From the NCBI RefSeq assembly GCF_002197845.1, contig NZ_NIDE01000005.1:434001-498000 (forward strand): 64,000 bases of DNA, written 5' to 3'. Shown here one piece after another: positions 8,549-30,489 of this stretch. Under the pieces are notes generated by a model. It was given only the letters and a program-made list of their open reading frames with translations, was not told the DNA's origin and ran no database searches. Every line of letters begins with the position of its first letter. The stretch's first letter is position 1. Source of the stretch: Fimbriiglobus ruber (GTDB lineage Bacteria > Planctomycetota > Planctomycetia > Gemmatales > Gemmataceae). The translations under genes and the position numbers were made by a program.

Positions 8549-10963
8549 TTATTCGTCAAACAGCGTGGCCGGCCCGTCGCCGTTCCGCTCGGCCGGCTTG
8601 TCCGCGTCGCGGGGCTTGCGCTCGGTCTTGCCCTCGACCTCGTCCCAGTTCGCCAATTCGATCGGCGGAGGCACCACGCGGGCGAACTTCTTCCGGGCGA
8701 ACTTCTTGTCGCCCTTGCCCCCGCGGGCCTGCGATTCCTGGTTCAACGGCGTGTACAGCTCCGAACTGCCGGCTTCAGTCTCGACGACCAGCCGGTTGAG
8801 ATCGTTCCGCCGGCCGGACGTGATGAGGTTCCCACCGATGCACGCGTCGCCGTCGTCGAGCTTGATCCCGATCACGCCCTTTCCAACGCCCGACAGGATG
8901 TTGACCTGGTCGAGCGGGAAGTAAATCACGTGGCTGGCGCGGGACGCGAGCATGACTCCGTCCTCGTCGCGGGCCAGCTTGACGAAAACGACCTTGTCGT
9001 CCCCTTCGAGCTTCGCGTACCGGCGGCCGACCTTCGTGGACTCCGGCCGGTACGAAGCGAGCGGCAACCGCAGGACGTTCCCGGCCGACGTGGCGATGAC
9101 GAGGTACGGGCCGCCGGGTAAGTCCCCCTCGGCCGGCTGGTCGGCTTGCGTGAATCGGGCGTCGGTCGTCATCGCGGCGATGACCTTCACCTGGTCCGCC
9201 ATCTTGAAGAACTTGGTGATCGGCTCGCCGTACCCGGAACTCGCCGGCACCTCGTTGATCCGCATCGTGTACGCGGCACCGTCGTCGGTGAAGAAGATCA
9301 CCGTGTCCAGCGTGCTGCCCGGGACGACCGCCACCACCTCGTCGCCCTCGCGGACGCGGGTACTCTCGACCGACGCCAGTCGGCCGACCCGCTTCACCCA
9401 CCCGTCGCGGGTCAGGACGACGTTCGTGTTGTCGCGGACGATGTAGGCGTCTTCGTTGAACTCCAGCACGTCCTCGTCGGACGCCATCCGCGTCTTCCGG
9501 CGGACGACGAAGTCCTGCTTGCCGAGTTCCTCCAGTTCGCCCTTCACCACGCCCCACAGCTTCTTCTCGGACGCCAGCAGGGCTTCGATCCGGGCGGCTT
9601 CCTTCTTCTTCTCCTTCAACTCGTCCAGGATCTTCTGGATCTCCATCTGGGCGATCTTGTAGAGCTGGGCGTCGAGAACCGCGTTGACCTGCTCGTCGTC
9701 CAGGCCGAACTCGGGCTTGAGCTTCTCGGCCGCGTCCGGCTTGCCGCTGCTGTTGCGGATGATTTTGATCGCCTTGTCGAGCCCGTCGAAGATGATGCGG
9801 AAGCCGTCGAGCAGGTGGATGCGGCGGAGCAGTTGGCGGAGCTGGTATTCAAACCGGCGGCGGACGGTCGCGAGCCGGAAGTCGAGGAAGTATCGCAGCA
9901 TTTCCCGCAGGCTGAGCGCGTCCCGCGGGACCATCGTGACGCCGTCCTCGGCCGGGACGAGGCAGGTCACGTTGTACGCGAAGTTCTTCTGCAGCTCGGT
10001 GTGCTTGTAAAGGTACGCCATCACCAGGTTCGGGTCGGTCCCCGGCTTGATCTCCAGCGCGATGCGGAGCCCGTCCTTGTCGTTCGACTCGTTCGCCAGG
10101 TCGAGCAGTTGCGGGAGTTTGCGGTCCTCGATCAGTCCGCCGATCAGGGCTTCCAGCGCGCCCTTGTCCACGCCGTAGGGGATGGACGTGACGATGATTT
10201 GTTGCTTGCCGCGGCCGAGGTCTTCGAGCTTCCACTCGGCCTGGATCTTGATGCTCCCGCGGCCCTCTTCGTAAATCTTGCGAAGGGTCGCCCGGTCGGT
10301 CACGATCTTGCCGCCGAGCGGGAAGTCCGGCCCCTTGACCTTTTCGAGCAACTGGGGGATGGTGGCGTCCGGGTTGTCGATGAGGTGGACGCAGGCGCGG
10401 AGGACTTCGCCGAGGTTGTGCGGCGGGATGTTCGTGGCCAACCCGACCGCGATGCCGGACGTGCCGTTGACGAGCAGGTTCGGGTACTGGGCCGGCAGCA
10501 TCACGGGCTCTTGCCGCGTGCCCGAGTAGTTGCCCGTGTAGTCGATCGTTTCCTGGCCGATCTCGTCGAGTAGGTACTCGGCGGCCCGGGTAAGCTTGGC
10601 CTCGGTGTACCGGTACGCGGCCGGCGGGTCGCCGTCGACCGACCCGAAGTTCCCTTCGCCGTGGACGAGCGGCACCCGCATAACCCATTCCTGGGACATG
10701 CGGACGAGGGCTTCATAAATCGCCCCGTCGCCGTGCGGGTGGAAATTCCCCATCACGTCCCCGACGATCTTCGCGCACTTCGAGGCCTTGCGGTCGAACG
10801 TCAGGTTCGAATCGTACATCGAGTACAAGATCCGCCGCTGGACCGGCTTGAGCCCGTCCCGGATGTCCGGCAGGGCGCGGCCCTTGACCACGGACACCAT
10901 GTACCGGAGCATCCGGCTCCGGACCTCGTCGGCGATCGAAACGGTCTGAACGTCATTCGCCAT
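8549..10963 (-). CDS. Type IIA DNA topoisomerase subunit A (GyrA/ParC)
   Basis: The 804-residue protein is the DNA-cleaving subunit of gyrase or topoisomerase IV. Visible features: the N-terminal region SRMLRYMVSVVKGRALPDIRDG; the quinolone-region motif FHPHGDGAIYEALVRM (residues 74-89); the cleavage tyrosine in AAYRYTE (Tyr119); the long coiled coil (about 400-460); and C-terminal beta-pinwheel repeats (about 490-740). The residue equal to E. coli GyrA Ser83 is Gly80, and the Asp87 position is Glu84. An ARGGKG segment near residue 752 only loosely resembles the gyrase-specific GyrA box and sits much later than usual, so I do not decide between GyrA and ParC. No gyrB/parE neighbour is present. 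Confidence 0.93.
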   Translation of the reverse strand: MANDVQTVSIADEVRSRMLRYMVSVVKGRALPDIRDGLKPVQRRILYSMYDSNLTFDRKASKCAKIVGDVMGNFHPHGDGAIYEALVRMSQEWVMRVPLVHGEGNFGSVDGDPPAAYRYTEAKLTRAAEYLLDEIGQETIDYTGNYSGTRQEPVMLPAQYPNLLVNGTSGIAVGLATNIPPHNLGEVLRACVHLIDNPDATIPQLLEKVKGPDFPLGGKIVTDRATLRKIYEEGRGSIKIQAEWKLEDLGRGKQQIIVTSIPYGVDKGALEALIGGLIEDRKLPQLLDLANESNDKDGLRIALEIKPGTDPNLVMAYLYKHTELQKNFAYNVTCLVPAEDGVTMVPRDALSLREMLRYFLDFRLATVRRRFEYQLRQLLRRIHLLDGFRIIFDGLDKAIKIIRNSSGKPDAAEKLKPEFGLDDEQVNAVLDAQLYKIAQMEIQKILDELKEKKKEAARIEALLASEKKLWGVVKGELEELGKQDFVVRRKTRMASDEDVLEFNEDAYIVRDNTNVVLTRDGWVKRVGRLASVESTRVREGDEVVAVVPGSTLDTVIFFTDDGAAYTMRINEVPASSGYGEPITKFFKMADQVKVIAAMTTDARFTQADQPAEGDLPGGPYLVIATSAGNVLRLPLASYRPESTKVGRRYAKLEGDDKVVFVKLARDEDGVMLASRASHVIYFPLDQVNILSGVGKGVIGIKLDDGDACIGGNLITSGRRNDLNRLVVETEAGSSELYTPLNQESQARGGKGDKKFARKKFARVVPPPIELANWDEVEGKTERKPRDADKPAERNGDGPATLFDE

Positions 10964-23512: not shown

Positions 23513-24352
23513 TCACCTCGGCCGCCATTCACCCGCACCCCACGGCGGCGGGCCGACTCGCGCCCAGAACGCTTCGGCGATCCGGCGCTGAATTTCCACC
23601 GCCAAATCGGCATCGCCCACGTCCCGATCCACATGATTGAACAGGCCATCGGTGCCGACTTCCAACGCGACCCACGGACCTTTCGGGGTCTGCAGTAAAT
23701 CCACGCAGCCGAACGAGTCGAACAGTCCGGCGGCCTCCAAGGCGCGGCGGGCGGTATCGACCGCTCCCGGGGGCGGCGCTCCGGCGACCTCATACCGGGC
23801 GCCCCGAGCGTGCGCGACCCACGGCGACGGTCGCGTGCCTTCGGGGAATCGTCTGGCGACCCAGCCGAATAGTTTCCCGCCGGCCGCGTAGAGGCGGTAA
23901 ACCTCGGGCTTCTCCAGACGGACGAATTCCTGCACGAGGAGCGGCCGCGGCCAACTCGACGAGACCCGCACGTCGTCCGTCAGCATGCGGTGTCCGGCGG
24001 CCCCGCAGCCGGTGGGGAACTTCAGGCACCATTCCTGGTCCGGACGGGCGCGGCGGTGAGCCTGGGCTCCCGCGAGCGTGTCGAAGACGTGCGTTTCCGG
24101 CGCGGGGACCGCGTGGTCGGCGAACGCTCGGGCGATGAGTCGTTTGTCCGCCGCCAATCGAATCGAGGAATACGGAATGAACAGATCGCCACACGACGCC
24201 GGGTCGAAATCGTCGGCATGGAGCAAGTAATTGTACCGCCGCGGGGTCGGCGACACGTCGATCCACAGCGCACCGGCAAGCTGGCGGGCGAGCCCCTCGA
24301 ACGCCCAGGAACCGGGGCCGTTGTTCAGCACGCAACAGTCATTCGCGTCCAC
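23513..24352 (-). CDS. ATP-grasp domain protein
   Basis: The start is GTG 24352, six bases after AGGAG and nine bases downstream of the SDR stop, so the two are translationally close. The 279-residue product has ATP-grasp features: SSIRLAADKRLIARAF, EWCLKFPTGCGAAGHRML (glycine-rich nucleotide loop), LLVQEFVR, VYRLYAAGGKLFGW, and FGCVDLLQTPKGPWVALEVG (Glu/Asn metal-site region). ATP-grasp enzymes join a carboxylate to an amine or thiol nucleophile through an acyl phosphate. As the last gene of the dehydrogenase set it may ligate or activate the pathway product; this is inference. Confidence 0.8.
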   Translation of the reverse strand: MDANDCCVLNNGPGSWAFEGLARQLAGALWIDVSPTPRRYNYLLHADDFDPASCGDLFIPYSSIRLAADKRLIARAFADHAVPAPETHVFDTLAGAQAHRRARPDQEWCLKFPTGCGAAGHRMLTDDVRVSSSWPRPLLVQEFVRLEKPEVYRLYAAGGKLFGWVARRFPEGTRPSPWVAHARGARYEVAGAPPPGAVDTARRALEAAGLFDSFGCVDLLQTPKGPWVALEVGTDGLFNHVDRDVGDADLAVEIQRRIAEAFWARVGPPPWGAGEWRPR

Positions 24353-24360
24353 GATATCTC

Positions 24361-25143
24361 CTAAAACTCCCGCGCGTACCCGGCCGTCCAGCCGCCGTCG
24401 ACGACGAGGATGTGGCCGTTGGTGTAGCTGTTCTCCGGGTCGGCCAGGAAGAGGGCGGCGACGGCGATCTCGTCCACGGTCGCCGGCCGGGCGAGCGGGA
24501 CGTGGTCGAGCATCCGCTGGACGGAGTCGCGGAACAGGCCGTCGTCGCCGTAGAACAGCTTGCGCGTCCCCTCGGTCAGTGTCGAGCCCGGGGCGACGCC
24601 GTTGACCAGGATGCCGTGCGGCCCGAGTTCCAGGGCCATCGCCTTGGTCAGGTTTACGACCCCGGCCTTCGCCGCCACGAACGCGCACTGGAGCCGGAGC
24701 GGCACGAGGCCGGCGATCGAGGCGATGTTGATGATCCGGCCCGACTTCTGGGCTCGCATCCGTATGGAAGCGGCTCGGCTCATCTCATACAGGCCCGTCA
24801 GGTCGACCGCCAGGATGCGGTCCCACTCCTCGCGCGGGAACTGGTCGATCGTGACGCGGTGGGCGAACGTGTTCACCCCGGCGTTGTTGACCAGGATGTC
24901 CAACCGCCCGGCTTCGGCGACGATCTGGCCGATCACCGCCTCAATTTCGGCCGCGTTGGTCACGTCAAGGCGGAGACCGCGGCCGTTAGGTGTGGCCGCC
25001 GCGGCGGCGCGAGCTTCGTCGGCGCTCAGGTCGGTGTAATAAACCACGCTCCCGTTAGCCGCGAGCCGGTCGGCGATCCTCTGGCCGATGCCCCGCGCGG
25101 CGCCGGTGATGAGGCTCACCTTCCCGGTCAGATCGCATCTCAT
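24361..25143 (-). CDS. Short-chain dehydrogenase/reductase with altered catalytic residues
   Basis: The 260-residue protein is a classical SDR in length and fold: TGAARGIG (residues 14-21, NAD(P) binding), LDV and NNAG (87-89 region). The catalytic tetrad, normally Asn-Ser-Tyr-Lys, reads Asp114 (LAVDLTGLY), Ser142 (ASIAG), Phe155 (CAFVAAK) and Lys159. The Tyr-to-Phe change removes the usual proton donor. The C-terminal ILVVDGGWTAGY motif is normal. It sits 25 bp after the E2 gene in the same direction. It may use a different chemistry, act as a binding or scaffold protein, or be inactive. Confidence 0.88.
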   Translation of the reverse strand: MRCDLTGKVSLITGAARGIGQRIADRLAANGSVVYYTDLSADEARAAAAATPNGRGLRLDVTNAAEIEAVIGQIVAEAGRLDILVNNAGVNTFAHRVTIDQFPREEWDRILAVDLTGLYEMSRAASIRMRAQKSGRIINIASIAGLVPLRLQCAFVAAKAGVVNLTKAMALELGPHGILVNGVAPGSTLTEGTRKLFYGDDGLFRDSVQRMLDHVPLARPATVDEIAVAALFLADPENSYTNGHILVVDGGWTAGYAREF

Positions 25144-25168: not shown

Positions 25169-26458
25169 TCACGTCGACAGGTACGGCCCCGGGTTCTCGA
25201 TCAGTTGGCAAATGGTCTGGAGGAATCGCGCGGCGGGGGCGCCGTCCACGATCCGGTGGTCGAACGTCAGGCTCAGGGCGATCTGGTCGCGGGCCACGAT
25301 CTTGTCGTCCTGCACGACTGGCTTACGGTCGATCCGGCCGACGCCGAGGATTGCGCATTCGGGCGGGTTAATGATCGGCGTGAACGTGTCGATCCCGTAA
25401 GCCCCGAGGTTCGTGATCGTGAAACAGCCCCCCTGCATGTCGCGGGTCGTCAGGCGGCTGCCGCGGGCGCGGTCGATTAACTCGCGCGATTGCGCCGCCA
25501 CCTCCCGCAGCCCGAGTTTGGGCACGTCCCGCACGACGGGTACGACCAGACCGCTGTCGACGTCCACGGCGACGCCGATGTGGATGGCGTCAGGGGGCCG
25601 GATGCCGTCGTCCGTCCAACGGGAGGCGAGGAGTGGGTGCTGTTCGAGCGCGGCGCCGACGAGTTTAATCAAGAAATCGGTGTACGAGGGCACGGGGCGG
25701 GCAGAATCTGTCCGGGCGACCGTTTTGAACTGTTCTCGGAGGTTGACCAGATTGGTCGCGTCCGGGTGGGCGTGGAGTGTGACCGGGGCGGTCGTGCGCT
25801 GGCTTTCGAGCATCCGGGCGGCGATCGTTTTTCGCGCCGGCGTCAGGGCAGCGGCCATGGTCGGCGCCGGACCTTTAGGGGCGGCCGCCACGCGAATGTC
25901 GCGTTCGCGAATGCGACCGGTTCGCCCGGTGCCGCGGACGCGGGTGTAGTCGACATTCAACTCGGCCGCCACCCGCCGGGCCCGGGGGGAGATGGCCGGC
26001 TCCTGGCGCGCGGCAGGCACCGTTGTAGACGCGCGGACGACGTCCTCCGCGGTGACACGGCCGCCCGGCCCGGTGCCGGGGAGGGCACGCGGGTCAATGC
26101 CGCGCTCGCGGAGCATTCGACGGACGGACGGGCTGGTCGGCGGCTCGTCTGGCTGGGCAGCGGTGGACGCGGGAACGGGTGGCGCGTCGGGAGCAGCCGG
26201 CAGGTCCGCTTCGCCCGGTTGGAGGAGGTAGCCGATGACCGCGCCGACGGCCACGGTCGCCCCCGGTTGCGGGGCGTCGGGCGGGATGCGGAGGGTGCCG
26301 CCGTCCAGGGTTTCGATTTCCTCGGTCGCCTTCTCGCCTTCCAGCTTGAACAGCAGGTCGCCGGGCCGAACGGTGTCCCCGTCCTGCTTGAGCCAGCCTA
26401 CGAAGACGCCCTGCTCCATGTTCCAGCCGAGGCGGGGGATCGTGACAGTAACGGGCAC
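25169..26458 (-). CDS. 2-oxo-acid dehydrogenase E2 (dihydrolipoamide acyltransferase)
   Basis: The 429-residue enzyme has an N-terminal lipoyl domain with the lipoylated lysine in LEGEKATEEIE (Lys43), and a Pro/Ala linker. Two peripheral subunit-binding motifs follow (SPSVRRMLRERGIDP with GTGPGGRVTAEDV; SPRARRVAAELNVDY with GTGRTGRIRERDI). The acyltransferase domain has the active-site motif FDHRIVDG near the end. It transfers the acyl group made by E1 to CoA. The E1 gene lies immediately upstream in the operon. The E3 subunit is not in the window. Confidence 0.92.
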   Translation of the reverse strand: MPVTVTIPRLGWNMEQGVFVGWLKQDGDTVRPGDLLFKLEGEKATEEIETLDGGTLRIPPDAPQPGATVAVGAVIGYLLQPGEADLPAAPDAPPVPASTAAQPDEPPTSPSVRRMLRERGIDPRALPGTGPGGRVTAEDVVRASTTVPAARQEPAISPRARRVAAELNVDYTRVRGTGRTGRIRERDIRVAAAPKGPAPTMAAALTPARKTIAARMLESQRTTAPVTLHAHPDATNLVNLREQFKTVARTDSARPVPSYTDFLIKLVGAALEQHPLLASRWTDDGIRPPDAIHIGVAVDVDSGLVVPVVRDVPKLGLREVAAQSRELIDRARGSRLTTRDMQGGCFTITNLGAYGIDTFTPIINPPECAILGVGRIDRKPVVQDDKIVARDQIALSLTFDHRIVDGAPAARFLQTICQLIENPGPYLST

Positions 26459-26525
26459 GGTTGGTCCTCACTCACGGCCCGGTTGATCCGGTCGTATTCG
26501 TGGATACGGGTCCGGGTCGGCCTCC

Positions 26526-26724
26526 GGTGTCCCCGGGCTCCCGCCCTCGTTGTACCCCATAAGTCGGAAGCAGCGAAAATGCCCCTTCTGAATGGCCTGG
26601 AAAACAAGCGTTTTCCAAGCGGCGAAGCGGATTTGGGCCTTCCGAATGCCGTGCCCGCAACATCTTGTTACGAAAGACGTTGCAGACTTGTGGGGTACAA
26701 CGAGGGCTCCCGCCCGGGGACACC
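26526..26724. repeat. 199-bp element with 40-bp inverted ends inside the dehydrogenase operon
   Basis: Arms 26526-26565 and 26685-26724 match except in their middle, where an 8-base core (GCTCCCGC) is itself inverted in the other arm, plus one further mismatch. A smaller hairpin (TGGAAAAC ... GTTTTCCA) lies inside near 26600. No coding sequence is present. It occupies most of the 326-bp gap between the E1 and E2 genes and looks like a small non-autonomous (MITE-like) insertion. Confidence 0.75.
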
Positions 26725-26784
26725 GGGGGCCGATTGCAACTACCTCCAAAACTCGGACCGGACACACATCGCCCGGACGATGCA

Positions 26785-28839
26785 TCACTCGGCCAGGAGG
26801 TCGCGGATGGCCCCGACGATCGCGTCCACGTTCGGGACGACGGCCTTTTCCAGCGGCGGGCTGTACGGGGTCGGCGTGTGGACACCGTTCAAGCGGCGGA
26901 TCGGGGCGTCGAGGTCGTCGAATCCGCGGTCGGCGATTTGGGCGGCGATTTCGGCCCCGATCCCGTAAGGCGCGAACGCCTCGTCCGCGATCAGGAGTCG
27001 GCCGGTCTTGGCCACCGACCGCGCGATCGTTTCCACGTCCAACGGGGCGACCGTCCGCGGGTCGATCACCTCGACCGAGACGCCGTCGCGGGCAAGGATA
27101 TCGCACGCCTTGAGCGTCTGGTGGACCATGAGGGCCAGGGCGACGACGGTCACGTCTGTTCCTTCGCGGACGACGGCCGCCCGGCCAAAGGAGATTTCGT
27201 AAGCCGCTTCCGGTACCGGGCCTTTGAGGCCGAGCAGCTCGCGGTGTTCCAGGAAGAGTACCGGGTCGTCGCACCGGAGGGCGCGGTGGAGGAGGCCCTT
27301 GGCGTCGTAAGGCGTCGAGGGGACGACTACCCGGAGGCCGGGGAAGTGGGCGTACATCGGGTAGTAGCTACCCGAGTGGTGGGTGGCGGCCGCGTGCCCG
27401 ACTCCGATACAGCCGCGGAGCAGGATCGGCATCTTGATCCGCCCGCTGCTCATGTACTGCATCTTGGCGATCTGGTTGACGATCTCGCCCACCCCGTCGA
27501 GGACGAAGTCGGCGAACATGAAGTCGATGACCGGCCGCGTCCCGGTCATCGCCGCCCCGCACCCGAGGCCGACGAACCCGCGCTCGCAAATGGGCGTGTC
27601 CCGCAGGCGTTCGGGGCCGTAGAGCTTGTAAAGGCCCGCGGTCGTGTTGAAGTTCCCGCCGCGGACCCCGATCCCCTCGCCCACGACGAAGATGCCCGGG
27701 TTCCGCGCCATCTCGGCCGACAGGGCTTCGAGCGTCGCCTGCATGTACGTCAGCTGGCGGTCGCCGGTCGCGGGCGGCGGGGGGTGGGAGACGGCCCGCG
27801 GCTCGGCGTACACGTGCGTGGCGGCCGTCGCCGGGTCGGGCCACGGGGCGGCCTCGGCCGTCTGGTGGGCGGTCTCGATTTCCCGCTGGATCTCGCTCTC
27901 GATCGCGTCCAGGTCGTCGGCCTTCACCTTGCCGGTGTTCGTGATGGACTCGCGGAGCCGCCGGATCGGGCACCGCGCCCGCCACGCCTCGACGTCCTCC
28001 CGGGTGCGGTAGGTGAAGTCGCCCATCCCCTCGGAATGCGGCCGGGTGCGGTAGGTCTTACATTCGAACAGCGTCGGCCCGCCGCCGGACCGCGCCCGCC
28101 GGACCGCCTCCTGTGCCGCGGCGTGGACCGCCCGGACGTCGTTGCCGTCCAGAGACACACCCGGCATGCCGTAAGCCGCCCCGCGGGCCGCCACGTCCGG
28201 GTTGCCGGCCGCGGTGGAGAAAGGAACCTCGGTCGCGAACTGGTTGTTTTCGCAGACGAACAGCACCGGGAGTTTCCAGATCGAGGCCATATTCAGCCCC
28301 TCGTGGAAGGCCCCGTTGTTCACGGCCCCGTCGCCGAAGAAGGCGACCGCGACCCGGTCCGTCTTCAACAGGCGGAAGCTGTACCCCGCGCCGGCGGCCT
28401 GAAGGATGCACGGGCCGACGATCCCGCTCGTCCCCATCAGGCCGACTTCCGGGGCGAAGAGGTGCATGCTCCCGCCGCGGCCGCGGGAACAGCCCGTTGC
28501 CCGGCCGTACAGTTCGGCAAGGAGTTCGACCGGCGGGACGCCCTTGGCGAGCGCGTGCCCGTGCCCGCGGTGGGTGCTGAAGACCACGTCGTCCGGCCGG
28601 AGGTGGGCGCAGACGCCGACCGCGACCGCCTCCTGGCCGATGTAAGTGTGGCAGGCCCCGTGTACCAGCCCGCGCTGGTGCGATTTCACGAGCTGCTCCT
28701 CGCACCGGCGGATGAGGACCATACGCCAGAACAGCGCGAGGAGATTTTTCGCGGGCGGTTCGTTCACGACGGTCAAGTCTCCTGAAACGGGGTTGTCTGT
28801 CGCTTTGGGACTCCGGGAGCGGGGTGGCGGCGTGACCAC
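26785..28839 (-). CDS. 2-oxo-acid dehydrogenase E1, fused alpha and beta subunits
   Basis: The 684-residue protein joins the two E1 chains. The alpha part (about 30-345) has YIGQEAVAVG and the thiamin diphosphate motif FFGDGAVNNG (Gly169-Asp-Gly) with the RGRGGSMHLF loop. The beta part (about 365-684) has GIFVVGEGIG, ICERGFVGLGCGAAM, FMFADFVLDG and the conserved HHSGSYYPMYAH and IDPRTVAPLD. It decarboxylates a 2-oxo acid and passes the acyl group to E2. The acceptor substrate is not readable from sequence: pyruvate, acetoin or a branched-chain acid are all possible. It is followed by E2, SDR and ATP-grasp genes and preceded by an anion-type MFS gene. Confidence 0.92.
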   Translation of the reverse strand: MVTPPPRSRSPKATDNPVSGDLTVVNEPPAKNLLALFWRMVLIRRCEEQLVKSHQRGLVHGACHTYIGQEAVAVGVCAHLRPDDVVFSTHRGHGHALAKGVPPVELLAELYGRATGCSRGRGGSMHLFAPEVGLMGTSGIVGPCILQAAGAGYSFRLLKTDRVAVAFFGDGAVNNGAFHEGLNMASIWKLPVLFVCENNQFATEVPFSTAAGNPDVAARGAAYGMPGVSLDGNDVRAVHAAAQEAVRRARSGGGPTLFECKTYRTRPHSEGMGDFTYRTREDVEAWRARCPIRRLRESITNTGKVKADDLDAIESEIQREIETAHQTAEAAPWPDPATAATHVYAEPRAVSHPPPPATGDRQLTYMQATLEALSAEMARNPGIFVVGEGIGVRGGNFNTTAGLYKLYGPERLRDTPICERGFVGLGCGAAMTGTRPVIDFMFADFVLDGVGEIVNQIAKMQYMSSGRIKMPILLRGCIGVGHAAATHHSGSYYPMYAHFPGLRVVVPSTPYDAKGLLHRALRCDDPVLFLEHRELLGLKGPVPEAAYEISFGRAAVVREGTDVTVVALALMVHQTLKACDILARDGVSVEVIDPRTVAPLDVETIARSVAKTGRLLIADEAFAPYGIGAEIAAQIADRGFDDLDAPIRRLNGVHTPTPYSPPLEKAVVPNVDAIVGAIRDLLAE

Positions 28840-28847
28840 ACCCCCGG

Positions 28848-28934
28848 CCCCTCTCCGACACGGAGAGGGGGAACCGACCCGCTTTGCCGTCCGCGACGGG
28901 CACCTCGGGCTCCCCTCTCCGCGTCGGAGAGGGG
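28848..28934. repeat. Two copies of a short hairpin repeat (arms of 10 bp, 3-nt loop)
   Basis: CCCCTCTCCG and CGGAGAGGGG flank a three-base loop at 28848-28870 and again at 28912-28934. Both copies are perfect. They lie between the MFS stop and the E1 start, so they may act as a terminator or partial terminator within the operon, or be copies of a dispersed palindromic repeat. Confidence 0.65.
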
Positions 28935-28971
28935 TTGGGGGCGAGGTCGCGCCCCACGCCCGGGGACCGAC

Positions 28972-30300
28972 TTATTCCCGCCTCCGGTTCACGCGCAAGA
29001 GGGCCACAATCCCGCCACCCAGGGCAAAGCAGGCGGCCAGGAAGAGCAGACACGCCCGGTCGTCCAGCCCCTCGTATTTCATTCTGCCGACGATCTTTGA
29101 GCCCAAGAAGCCGGCGAGGTTCGCACTCATATTAATGAAGCCGATCGACACGGCCGCGGCCGACGACGAAAGCGCCTGGGTCGGTAGTACCCAGAAGGGC
29201 GAGATCCAGAAGTTCGCACAGAACCCGGTCAGGCAAAGCCAGATGAAAACCAGCGCCCACGGTTGGCCCGGGACGGTACTCAGCGCGAGAAACACGCCGG
29301 CCCCGACCAGGCTGACGACGCAGTGCCACTTGCGGTCGCCGGTCCGGTCCGACGAGTGACCGGACACCAGTACGCCCAGGAAACCGCACAGGTAGACCAG
29401 GCCGGTCCAGACGAGGACGTCCGCGGACGCGCTTTGCCGGCCGAGTGAGGTCAACAGCCCCTGGACGGCCGTCGGCAGCCAGAACACCATCGCGTACCCG
29501 CCGGTGTTGGTCGCGAAGATGCCGAGGGCGAGGAGCCAGACGGCCGGCATGCGGGCGACCCGACCGATCGTGACGGCCCCGCTCGTTGTCTCGACCTCCC
29601 GACGTTCCGCTTCCAGTGTCTTCTCAAGCCACGCCCGCTCGTCCGGAGTCAGCCACCGAGCTTGGGCCGGCCGGTCCGTCAAGAGAAACGGCAGCGCGAC
29701 GCCGAACACGACGGCCGGCGCCCCTTCGACAATAAACACCCACTGCCACCCCGCGAGCCCGAACCACCCCTGCTCCAGCAGCAGCCCCGAAACGGCCGAC
29801 CCGAGGGCCAGACTGAGGGGAACGCCGACGAGCATAACGGCCAGCGCGCGGGCCCGGTCGGGTCGCGGGAACCAGTGGGTGAAATAGACGATGATGCCGG
29901 GGAAGAAGCCCGCCTCGGCCAACCCGAGCAAAAATCGGGCGATGTAGAACTGTGTGGGCGTGGTCACCAGAGCCATGCCCATCGAGCAGAAGCCCCAGGT
30001 GATCAGGATGCGGGCGAACCACTTTCGCGCGCTCCAGTGCTCGACGAGCAGGGCGCCGGGGATTTCGAGGAACAAGTACCCGATGAAGAAGATGCCGATG
30101 CCCGACCCGAACGTGTCGTCGTCGAACCCGAGCGCCCCCTGCATCTGGAGTTTGGCGAACCCGACGTTCGCGCGGTCGAGGTAGGCGACCACGTACAGCA
30201 GGAACACGAGCGGCAGCACCCGCCACGCGACCTTCCGCCGCGCGGCCCGGGCCACGCCGCGCGCGGTATCGTCGTCCGGCGGGTCGATCGTCCCGAACAT
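28972..30300 (-). CDS. MFS transporter, anion:cation symporter type
   Basis: From ATG 30300 the product is 442 residues; an alternative GTG at 30345 also lacks a ribosome site. Twelve hydrophobic segments are visible. ACS-family hallmarks are VAYLDRANVGFAKLQM in the first helix region, FFIGYLFLEIPGALLVE, and FLLGLAEAGFFPGIIVYFTHWFP. Members import organic anions such as sugar acids, phthalate or tartrate. Being first in line before the E1-E2-SDR-ATP-grasp genes, it may bring in the substrate that the pathway breaks down (inference). Confidence 0.85.
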   Translation of the reverse strand: MFGTIDPPDDDTARGVARAARRKVAWRVLPLVFLLYVVAYLDRANVGFAKLQMQGALGFDDDTFGSGIGIFFIGYLFLEIPGALLVEHWSARKWFARILITWGFCSMGMALVTTPTQFYIARFLLGLAEAGFFPGIIVYFTHWFPRPDRARALAVMLVGVPLSLALGSAVSGLLLEQGWFGLAGWQWVFIVEGAPAVVFGVALPFLLTDRPAQARWLTPDERAWLEKTLEAERREVETTSGAVTIGRVARMPAVWLLALGIFATNTGGYAMVFWLPTAVQGLLTSLGRQSASADVLVWTGLVYLCGFLGVLVSGHSSDRTGDRKWHCVVSLVGAGVFLALSTVPGQPWALVFIWLCLTGFCANFWISPFWVLPTQALSSSAAAVSIGFINMSANLAGFLGSKIVGRMKYEGLDDRACLLFLAACFALGGGIVALLRVNRRRE

Positions 30301-30489
30301 GGTGCGCGTACCGGCGGGGAGGGAACGCCGTGAGGCAAGTGCCACACGTTACCAGGGAACGCCGGCGCGGGCACGCGAAAAGTGCGAAGAGGAAAAGCAA
30401 AGGGTGTGCAGCCGGAAAATTGGTGCAACTTATGTTCACTCCGGCGTATGCCTGAGTGACGCCCGGAAATCGCTCCCCGGAGAGTCCCC

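Follow-up and report, generated by a model that had tools for sequence, protein, structure and literature searches.

The tyrosine of the YxxxK motif is the recognition residue of SDRs and is taken to be their catalytic acid/base. Its replacement with phenylalanine is expected to abolish activity in ordinary SDRs. Contig NZ_NIDE01000005.1 of Fimbriiglobus ruber carries an SDR gene in which this replacement appears to have occurred naturally, and the question raised by the locus is whether such a protein can still be a working dehydrogenase. The DNA analyzed here (64,000 nucleotides; the window) had been read previously from its letters, and that original prediction described an SDR with Asp114 and Phe155 in place of the tetrad Asn and Tyr.

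The SDR gene of the window

Both substitutions, including the CAFVAAK box that stands for YxxxK, were confirmed in letters and numbering on an open reading frame of the minus strand (Table 1); translation of the plus strand over 24361-25143 gives an unrelated reading. In the protein, D114 lies in VDLTG, S142 in IASIAG, and F155 and K159 in CAFVAAK (residues 153-159). The NAD-binding and structural motifs had been considered intact, and TGxxxGxG and NNAG are indeed present as TGAARGIG and NNAG. The protein matched PF13561 with 189.5 bits (cut-off 27) and fell under the curated cut-off of each of the best 25 of 232 matching NCBIfam models.

An AF2 model of the protein had a mean pLDDT of 90.1, and its Foldseek and VIA matches were classical SDRs. 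Structural alignment gave Z scores of 36-37 to FabG, butanediol dehydrogenase and relatives (36.0 for the FabG Y151F structure, 1q7c), with about 40% sequence identity to FabG. No solved structure of a member of the family described below was found among the matches listed, which were ordinary SDRs of at most about 42% identity. Shared with the FabG, 3-hydroxybutyrate and glucose dehydrogenase SDRs (PF13561, PF00106) are the fold, TGxxxGxG, NNAG, Ser and Lys. Unlike these classical enzymes, the family has Phe at position 155 in most collected members, Asp for the tetrad Asn, the arginines R96 and R150, and an RxF tail. The window protein resembles a classical NAD-dependent SDR but lacks two class-defining residues, Tyr and Asn; it is best filed as belonging to an SDR-fold family with a variant active site.

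Table 1. Features of the SDR locus (window positions)
Feature	Position	Strand	Remarks
ATP-grasp-like protein	23513..24352	-	Weak match, under Pfam cut-off; probable GTG start
SDR, 260 aa + stop (TAG at 24363-24361)	24361..25143	-	ATG start; member of a discrete, Phe/Tyr-dimorphic family
C-terminal tail AREF: Arg258 and C-terminal Phe260	24364..24375	-	Arg258 structurally opposite Gln247 of Serratia butanediol dehydrogenase (approximate)
Lys159	24667..24669	-	Kept in 68/68 family members
Phe155 (codon TTC), site of catalytic Tyr	24679..24681	-	Tyr in 69/69 control SDRs
Arg150-Leu151-Gln152	24688..24696	-	R150 and Q152 invariant in family; 5 and 3 residues before 155
Ser142	24718..24720	-	Kept in 68/68 family members
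Asp114 (codon GAC), site of tetrad Asn	24802..24804	-	Asp in 68/68 family members
Arg96, loop after NNAG	24856..24858	-	Invariant in SDR family
E2-type protein: lipoyl, E3-binding and acyltransferase domains	25169..26458	-	
E1 alpha-beta fusion, 2-oxoacid/acetoin dehydrogenase complex	26785..28839	-	Near SDR in other genomes too
MFS transporter	28972..30345	-	Nearest D-galactonate transporter family, under its cut-off

The genes around the SDR follow one another on one strand in an operon-like order: MFS transporter, E1 alpha-beta fusion, E2, SDR and ATP-grasp-like protein. The SDR begins 25 bases after the end of E2, and the GTG of the ATP-grasp-like gene lies 8 bases past the SDR stop, behind AGGAG. 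The order E1-E2-SDR also occurs in related genomes (L031-L034, L037), with E1 77-81% and E2 52-53% identical. None of the other 52 loci in the comparison showed the ATP-grasp-like gene.

Two inverted repeats were observed nearby. The 326-base gap between E1 and E2 contains a palindromic element of about 200 bases (26517-26733) with 49-base arms that are 88% complementary; with 40 of 135 candidates scored, at least 28 further copies are present in the genome (164-229 bases, 89-99% identity). The other repeat (28820-28962; 58-base arms, 78% complementary) lies before the end of the MFS gene and overlaps the E1 start as called.

A family in which the catalytic tyrosine varies

A search of 59 related genomes identified orthologues at 68-80% identity in seven genomes, including the window's own, after which identity drops to 44%. 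D114 and F155 are common to all seven other sequences of this first alignment (68-80% identical). A genome collection was then scanned with the seed motifs [LV]VNNAGVN and HRV[TP]ID[EQ]F and the best 80 loci were kept; 34 of them (L039-L072, 51-80% identity) belong to the family, and none of the others exceeds 42% identity. With profile searches at E 1e-75, 11 of 392 planctomycete genomes (the window's own included) proved to encode a member. The count was 5 of 337 genomes for the phylum to which the Opitutae locus L056 belongs (2 of the 5 already known) and 12 of 347 for the order that contains the Kaistia locus L065 (1 already known). Given these low counts, the distribution of the family is sparse and patchy. 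Among the best 5000 records listed for plasmid-borne relatives of the window SDR, all were below 60% identity.

Altogether, 68 members were collected from planctomycetes, Armatimonadota, Verrucomicrobiota and kin, and Alphaproteobacteria. This number includes incomplete sequences (L038, 241 aa; L048, internal gap; L072, 192 aa; L126, 180 aa) and close copies (3 of 260 residues separate L041 from L032, and L049 is the same contig as L120). The open-licence papers listed for SDRs that naturally have Phe in place of Tyr, or no Tyr, concern eugenol synthase and a few others; none is on this family by title, and our impression is that the family is so far undescribed.

R96, D114, S142, R150, Q152 and K159 are present in 68/68 members. 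Position 155 is the only tetrad site that varies within the family, with Phe in 57 members and Tyr in 11 (54 and 11 of the 65 members that are non-redundant at 97%). As controls, 69 SDRs were taken from the weaker matches of the same searches (L008-L030 and L073-L118). All 69 have Tyr at position 155, and their residue 114 is Asn (58), Asp (8), Met (2) or Ser (1); the eight with Asp114 all have Tyr. The sharing of the substitutions by orthologues, which the original prediction had put forward as the check to make, is thus borne out: both residues occur in 7/7 of the nearest sequences, and Phe155 is found in the family and in none of the controls, a pattern well beyond chance. Asp114 fared otherwise. 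It had been read as one of the marks of a different reaction, but it is a family-wide trait that also occurs with Tyr and therefore does not mark one. By itself Asp114 is ordinary, far less remarkable than Phe155.

The Phe majority is partly a sampling effect, since the motif-seeded scan may favor Phe members. Phe and Tyr are balanced 5:5 in the ten other planctomycete members found by profile only (Phe in L119, L120, L122, L123 and L127; Tyr in L121, L124, L125, L126 and L128). One of them, the Tyr155 member L126, is 77% identical to the window SDR over its 180 residues. All 12 genomes of the L065-order search have Phe155.

Residue 90 (window 24874-24876) was seen to covary with position 155, being Val with Phe155 in 50/54 and Ile with Tyr155 in 9/11, which is partly a sampling effect. 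The covariation is suggestive and is given little weight because one seed motif of the scan selects Val90. Two other residues were considered as replacements for the tyrosine and rejected: Tyr198 of the lid, a possible replacement hydroxyl, is present in only 59/68 members and absent from the Phe members L060 and L061, and position 95 (His95) is variable. One genome (G015) has two SDR copies, L032 and L038, identical at 217 of 241 residues; both copies precede an epimerase-like gene and a cyclase-like gene that are read from the other strand.

Repeated exchange of Phe and Tyr

A tree was calculated from 75 rows (51 Phe, 11 Tyr and 13 outgroup). L038, L072, L079, L083, L084, L120, L158, L159 and L163 were left out as partial, long-branch or same-contig sequences or in thinning close relatives; an earlier tree had left out L038 and L072. 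The SDR family forms one side of a branch with 100/100 support. The Phe label needs seven changes on the tree, five of which are forced by well-supported branches, so Phe and Tyr have been swapped at least five times. For example, the Tyr members of the Opitutae group (L055-L057 and L063) branch as the sister of L068, a planctomycete with Phe, and another sister pair joins L126 (Tyr) to L119 (Phe). The stem of the family probably had Tyr, because the outgroup is all Tyr; Phe would then have arisen many times, or once with returns.

Most differences between the window gene and six close orthologues fall at third codon positions, as in the comparison with L031 (32, 37 and 105 differences at positions 1, 2 and 3). 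This excess indicates that the gene is under selection; the Phe-bearing proteins are thus being maintained. To judge from the alignments, the tyrosine seems optional and not simply lost, because Phe and Tyr have been interchanged repeatedly while the other residues of the site stay fixed.

Neighboring genes and the likely substrate

Neighbors were surveyed in 53 loci, including L049 and L130 (one contig) and many short contigs. E1 or E2 was present within the flanks examined in 26/53 loci, from several phyla, and absent from the other 27, some of which have long flanks (L035, L045-L047); the pathway link is therefore not universal. Position 155 could be read in 25 of the E1/E2-bearing loci and is Phe in 19 and Tyr in 6 (L056, L057, L058, L063, L131 and L135). 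Among these E1/E2-bearing loci, the nearest ones all have Phe155 (the window, L031-L034, L040-L042 and L129). A recent loss of function had been expected to show itself as operon orthologues that all carry Tyr, which is not what these loci display.

A conserved cupin of about 140 aa adjoins the SDR in 8/53 loci (L045, at 9787-10206, L035, L046, L047, L050, L051, L132 and L134), none of which has E1-E2 in the flanks examined. Seven of these loci have Phe155 and one Tyr155 (L134). As E1/E2 and cupin loci are both mixed, the switch at position 155 does not follow these neighbors.

Recurrent neighbors over the 53 loci were 2-hydroxyacid dehydrogenases (11), an UlaG-like hydrolase (7), an aldose 1-epimerase (mutarotase; 4), a RhaT-like symporter (3) and a FAH hydrolase (2), together with RbsABC-like transporter genes and galactonate-dehydratase-like dehydratases of the enolase superfamily. 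The RhaT, epimerase, FAH and enolase assignments are above the Pfam cut-off, with finer NCBIfam names mostly below cut-off; RbsA and RbsC were named by eye. Acyl-CoA enzymes are not recurrent, with an acyl-CoA synthetase-like gene recognized by eye in two loci (L033, L040).

From these neighbors we infer a role in sugar or sugar-acid metabolism. The substrate would be polar and probably anionic, judging from the invariant R96, R150 and Q152. NAD is the probable cofactor, as suggested by the Rossmann motif and by D38 at the end of strand 2; of the 63 non-redundant members that have a residue at this position, 62 carry Asp and 1 carries Gly. Arginines of this kind have precedents. PMC11199699 describes L-2-keto-3-deoxyfuconate 4-dehydrogenase, an enzyme of a sugar-acid pathway, and hydroxypropyl-CoM dehydrogenases, in which arginine residues of the site hold the carboxylate or sulfonate; one such Arg sits three residues before the Tyr, and the sugar-acid enzymes retain the Ser-Tyr-Lys triad. 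The present family differs from 2-keto-3-deoxyfuconate dehydrogenase in having its Arg five residues before position 155 and Gln at minus three.

Other features of the neighborhoods were also observed. In alphaproteobacteria and Opitutae (L052, L053, L056 and L065) the E1 fusion has its own C-terminal lipoyl domain. The protein beside E1 in L065 matches the E3-binding domain only, and the E2-like gene of L058 encodes an 81-aa lipoyl domain alone; a complex of this type, without a recognizable acyltransferase, is odd. A conserved protein of about 340 aa occurs near the SDR in L043 (7067-8110), L046, L058 and L061 (6931-7944), together with the RhaT-like symporter in L046, L058 and L061; the L061 copy has no Pfam match.

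A C-terminal tail and its distribution in Alphaproteobacteria

The family has a characteristic C-terminus. The tail G(Y/F)xR(D/E)(F/W)-stop was present in 43/43 non-alphaproteobacterial members with a complete end and in 0/69 control SDRs. The count comprises 41/41 members of the tail alignment plus L072 and L177, which fell under its score filter and whose tails were read separately; the alignment omitted L130 and L170, which share their contigs with L049 and L059, as well as L037, which is truncated by its contig.

The corresponding alphaproteobacterial SDR has the RxF tail in 0/22 cases and ends instead in GW(T/I)(A/T)G(Y/F) plus two residues. In 21 of the 22 alphaproteobacterial loci, a second SDR with the tail GYxR(D/N/S)F or GFARDF is encoded within about 4 kb (20/20 partners in the tail alignment plus the L067 partner, just under its identity filter); the locus without it, L070, is a 4.5-kb contig. 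The flanks of the window SDR contain no partner SDR gene.

Two Rhodospirillales loci (L052, L054) encode a full-length partner that has TGAARGIG, D114, Tyr155 and Lys159. The partner is degenerate in 19/22 loci, where it has 189-209 aa (L168 was aligned over 155). In the 18 degenerate partners of the tail alignment, neither the glycine motif nor NNAG remains, the Asp114 segment and the Lys are gone as well, and the Tyr site holds Phe, Ala, Trp, Gln or, in L066, Tyr. A separate alignment of 18 such partners has 25 invariant columns, 14 of which are in the last 30 residues. A model of such a partner had a pLDDT of 89 with a disordered tail, and SDR matches over the shortened fold. This pairing resembles in kind BbsCD of anaerobic toluene degradation, which acts on an acyl-CoA and which a title cited by PMC10818641 calls a heteromeric SDR with inactive pseudoenzyme subunits; the pair found here was seen only in Alphaproteobacteria. 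The BbsD chain was among the matches of the window SDR, and BbsC was not among the 50 Foldseek matches listed for the pseudo-SDR model.

A clue to what the tail might do comes from the 2,3-butanediol dehydrogenase of Serratia marcescens (6xew/6vsp). This is an ordinary Tyr SDR, 32-33% identical to the window SDR, and like the family it has a C-terminal tail in a comparable position; it differs in having Gln where the family has Arg. The structural alignment ends with model residue 258 opposite residue 247 in 6vsp_B and 6xex_B, and with 257 opposite 246 in 6xew_A. The predicted match of R258 with residue 247 is approximate because the tail has low model confidence (pLDDT). In the Serratia enzyme, the C-terminus of one molecule enters the substrate pocket of another, Gln247 bonds the substrate and the Q247A variant lost about 90% of activity; its authors hold it to be active only as a tetramer (PMC7656694). 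If the present family behaves likewise, each subunit would have its site completed by Arg258 of a neighbor. A tail that is shared and interchangeable would be expected to leave the complementary loss observed in Alphaproteobacteria.

Proposed mechanism and alternatives

The active site is proposed to be built to work with or without the classical tyrosine. R96, R150 and Q152 would hold a polar, probably anionic sugar or sugar-acid substrate. Lys159, tuned by Asp114, would deprotonate the substrate hydroxyl, and Arg258 inserted from the neighboring subunit would assist; with these groups in place, the tyrosine hydroxyl would become optional. The product would pass into a pathway in which the E1-E2 complex is often employed. 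The alphaproteobacterial version would operate as a heteromer, with the second SDR donating the tail. As a whole, this proposal of an NAD-dependent sugar or sugar-acid dehydrogenase, often encoded beside E1-E2, in which Lys159/Asp114 and a neighbor-donated Arg replace the Tyr and which is a heteromer in Alphaproteobacteria, is tentative, and we give it nearly an even chance of being correct. A stricter formulation describes a Tyr-independent branch of SDRs relying on Lys159/Asp114 and the C-terminal Arg of a neighbor, with the alphaproteobacterial site split between a tailless Phe-type SDR and a degenerate tail supplier that form an obligate heteromer; this is possible and somewhat doubtful.

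The Phe members could be inactive. They would then be non-catalytic sensors of NAD or a metabolite, or structural partners of E1-E2, that is, pseudoenzymes beside working Tyr-type enzymes, and the SDR may have such a regulatory or structural role. The loss of the Tyr would normally end SDR catalysis, an E1 or E2 gene lies near the SDR in 26/53 loci, and the lineage does make pseudo-SDRs, as its alphaproteobacterial members illustrate. In those true pseudo-SDRs, however, the cofactor motif has disappeared together with the Asp114 segment and the Lys, whereas the Phe members keep Lys159, Ser142, Asp114 and the substrate-side Arg and Gln residues as strictly as the Tyr members do. Seven Phe members also adjoin the cupin and not E1-E2, and at least five Phe/Tyr flips sit poorly with a division into sensors and enzymes; we consider such a role unlikely. 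An exchange of this kind within otherwise invariant sites argues in the same way against a different reaction of the Phe type, in which no acid/base would be needed at position 155 (enol or enoyl reduction, or epimerization or dehydration with bound NAD). The model here would be human peroxisomal 2,4-dienoyl-CoA reductase, which has Asp at the tetrad Asn, no Tyr, a conserved Lys and an acyl-CoA substrate. The likeness would extend to Asp114, the Lys and the missing Tyr, and the cupin or hydrolase neighbors would fit varied pathways. Nevertheless, acyl-CoA enzymes are not recurrent neighbors, save for the synthetase-like gene of L033 and L040, and a change of reaction also seems improbable.

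The gene might instead be dying, with Phe155 as a recent change that is neutral or degenerative, which could be argued from 155 being the only varying tetrad site. Orthologues across many genera and several phyla share the Phe, however, which rules out a recent loss of function, and conservation of the gene is seen chiefly in its protein sequence; a dying gene is thus very improbable. Of the original prediction, the conserved, non-canonical character of the SDR holds, as its orthologues attest. The step from there to a new reaction or a regulator is weakened by the interchange of Phe and Tyr, which extends to E1-E2 loci, with the other residues fixed. The same reaction with a dispensable tyrosine appears to fit the alignments better than either.

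Significance

The anomaly is true and conserved, and goes further than first noted, with a tyrosine that looks optional and, in Alphaproteobacteria, a split-off tail. With position 155 switching in an otherwise frozen site, the family offers natural matched pairs for asking what the tyrosine does, and it would caution against writing off Phe variants as dead. If true, the pairing in Alphaproteobacteria would clearly exemplify an active site shared out between a functional enzyme and its degenerate copy. The neighborhoods point to an uncharacterized E1-E2-linked pathway for sugars or sugar acids in planctomycetes and rhizobia, in which this family would represent an unusual way of running a very common reaction.
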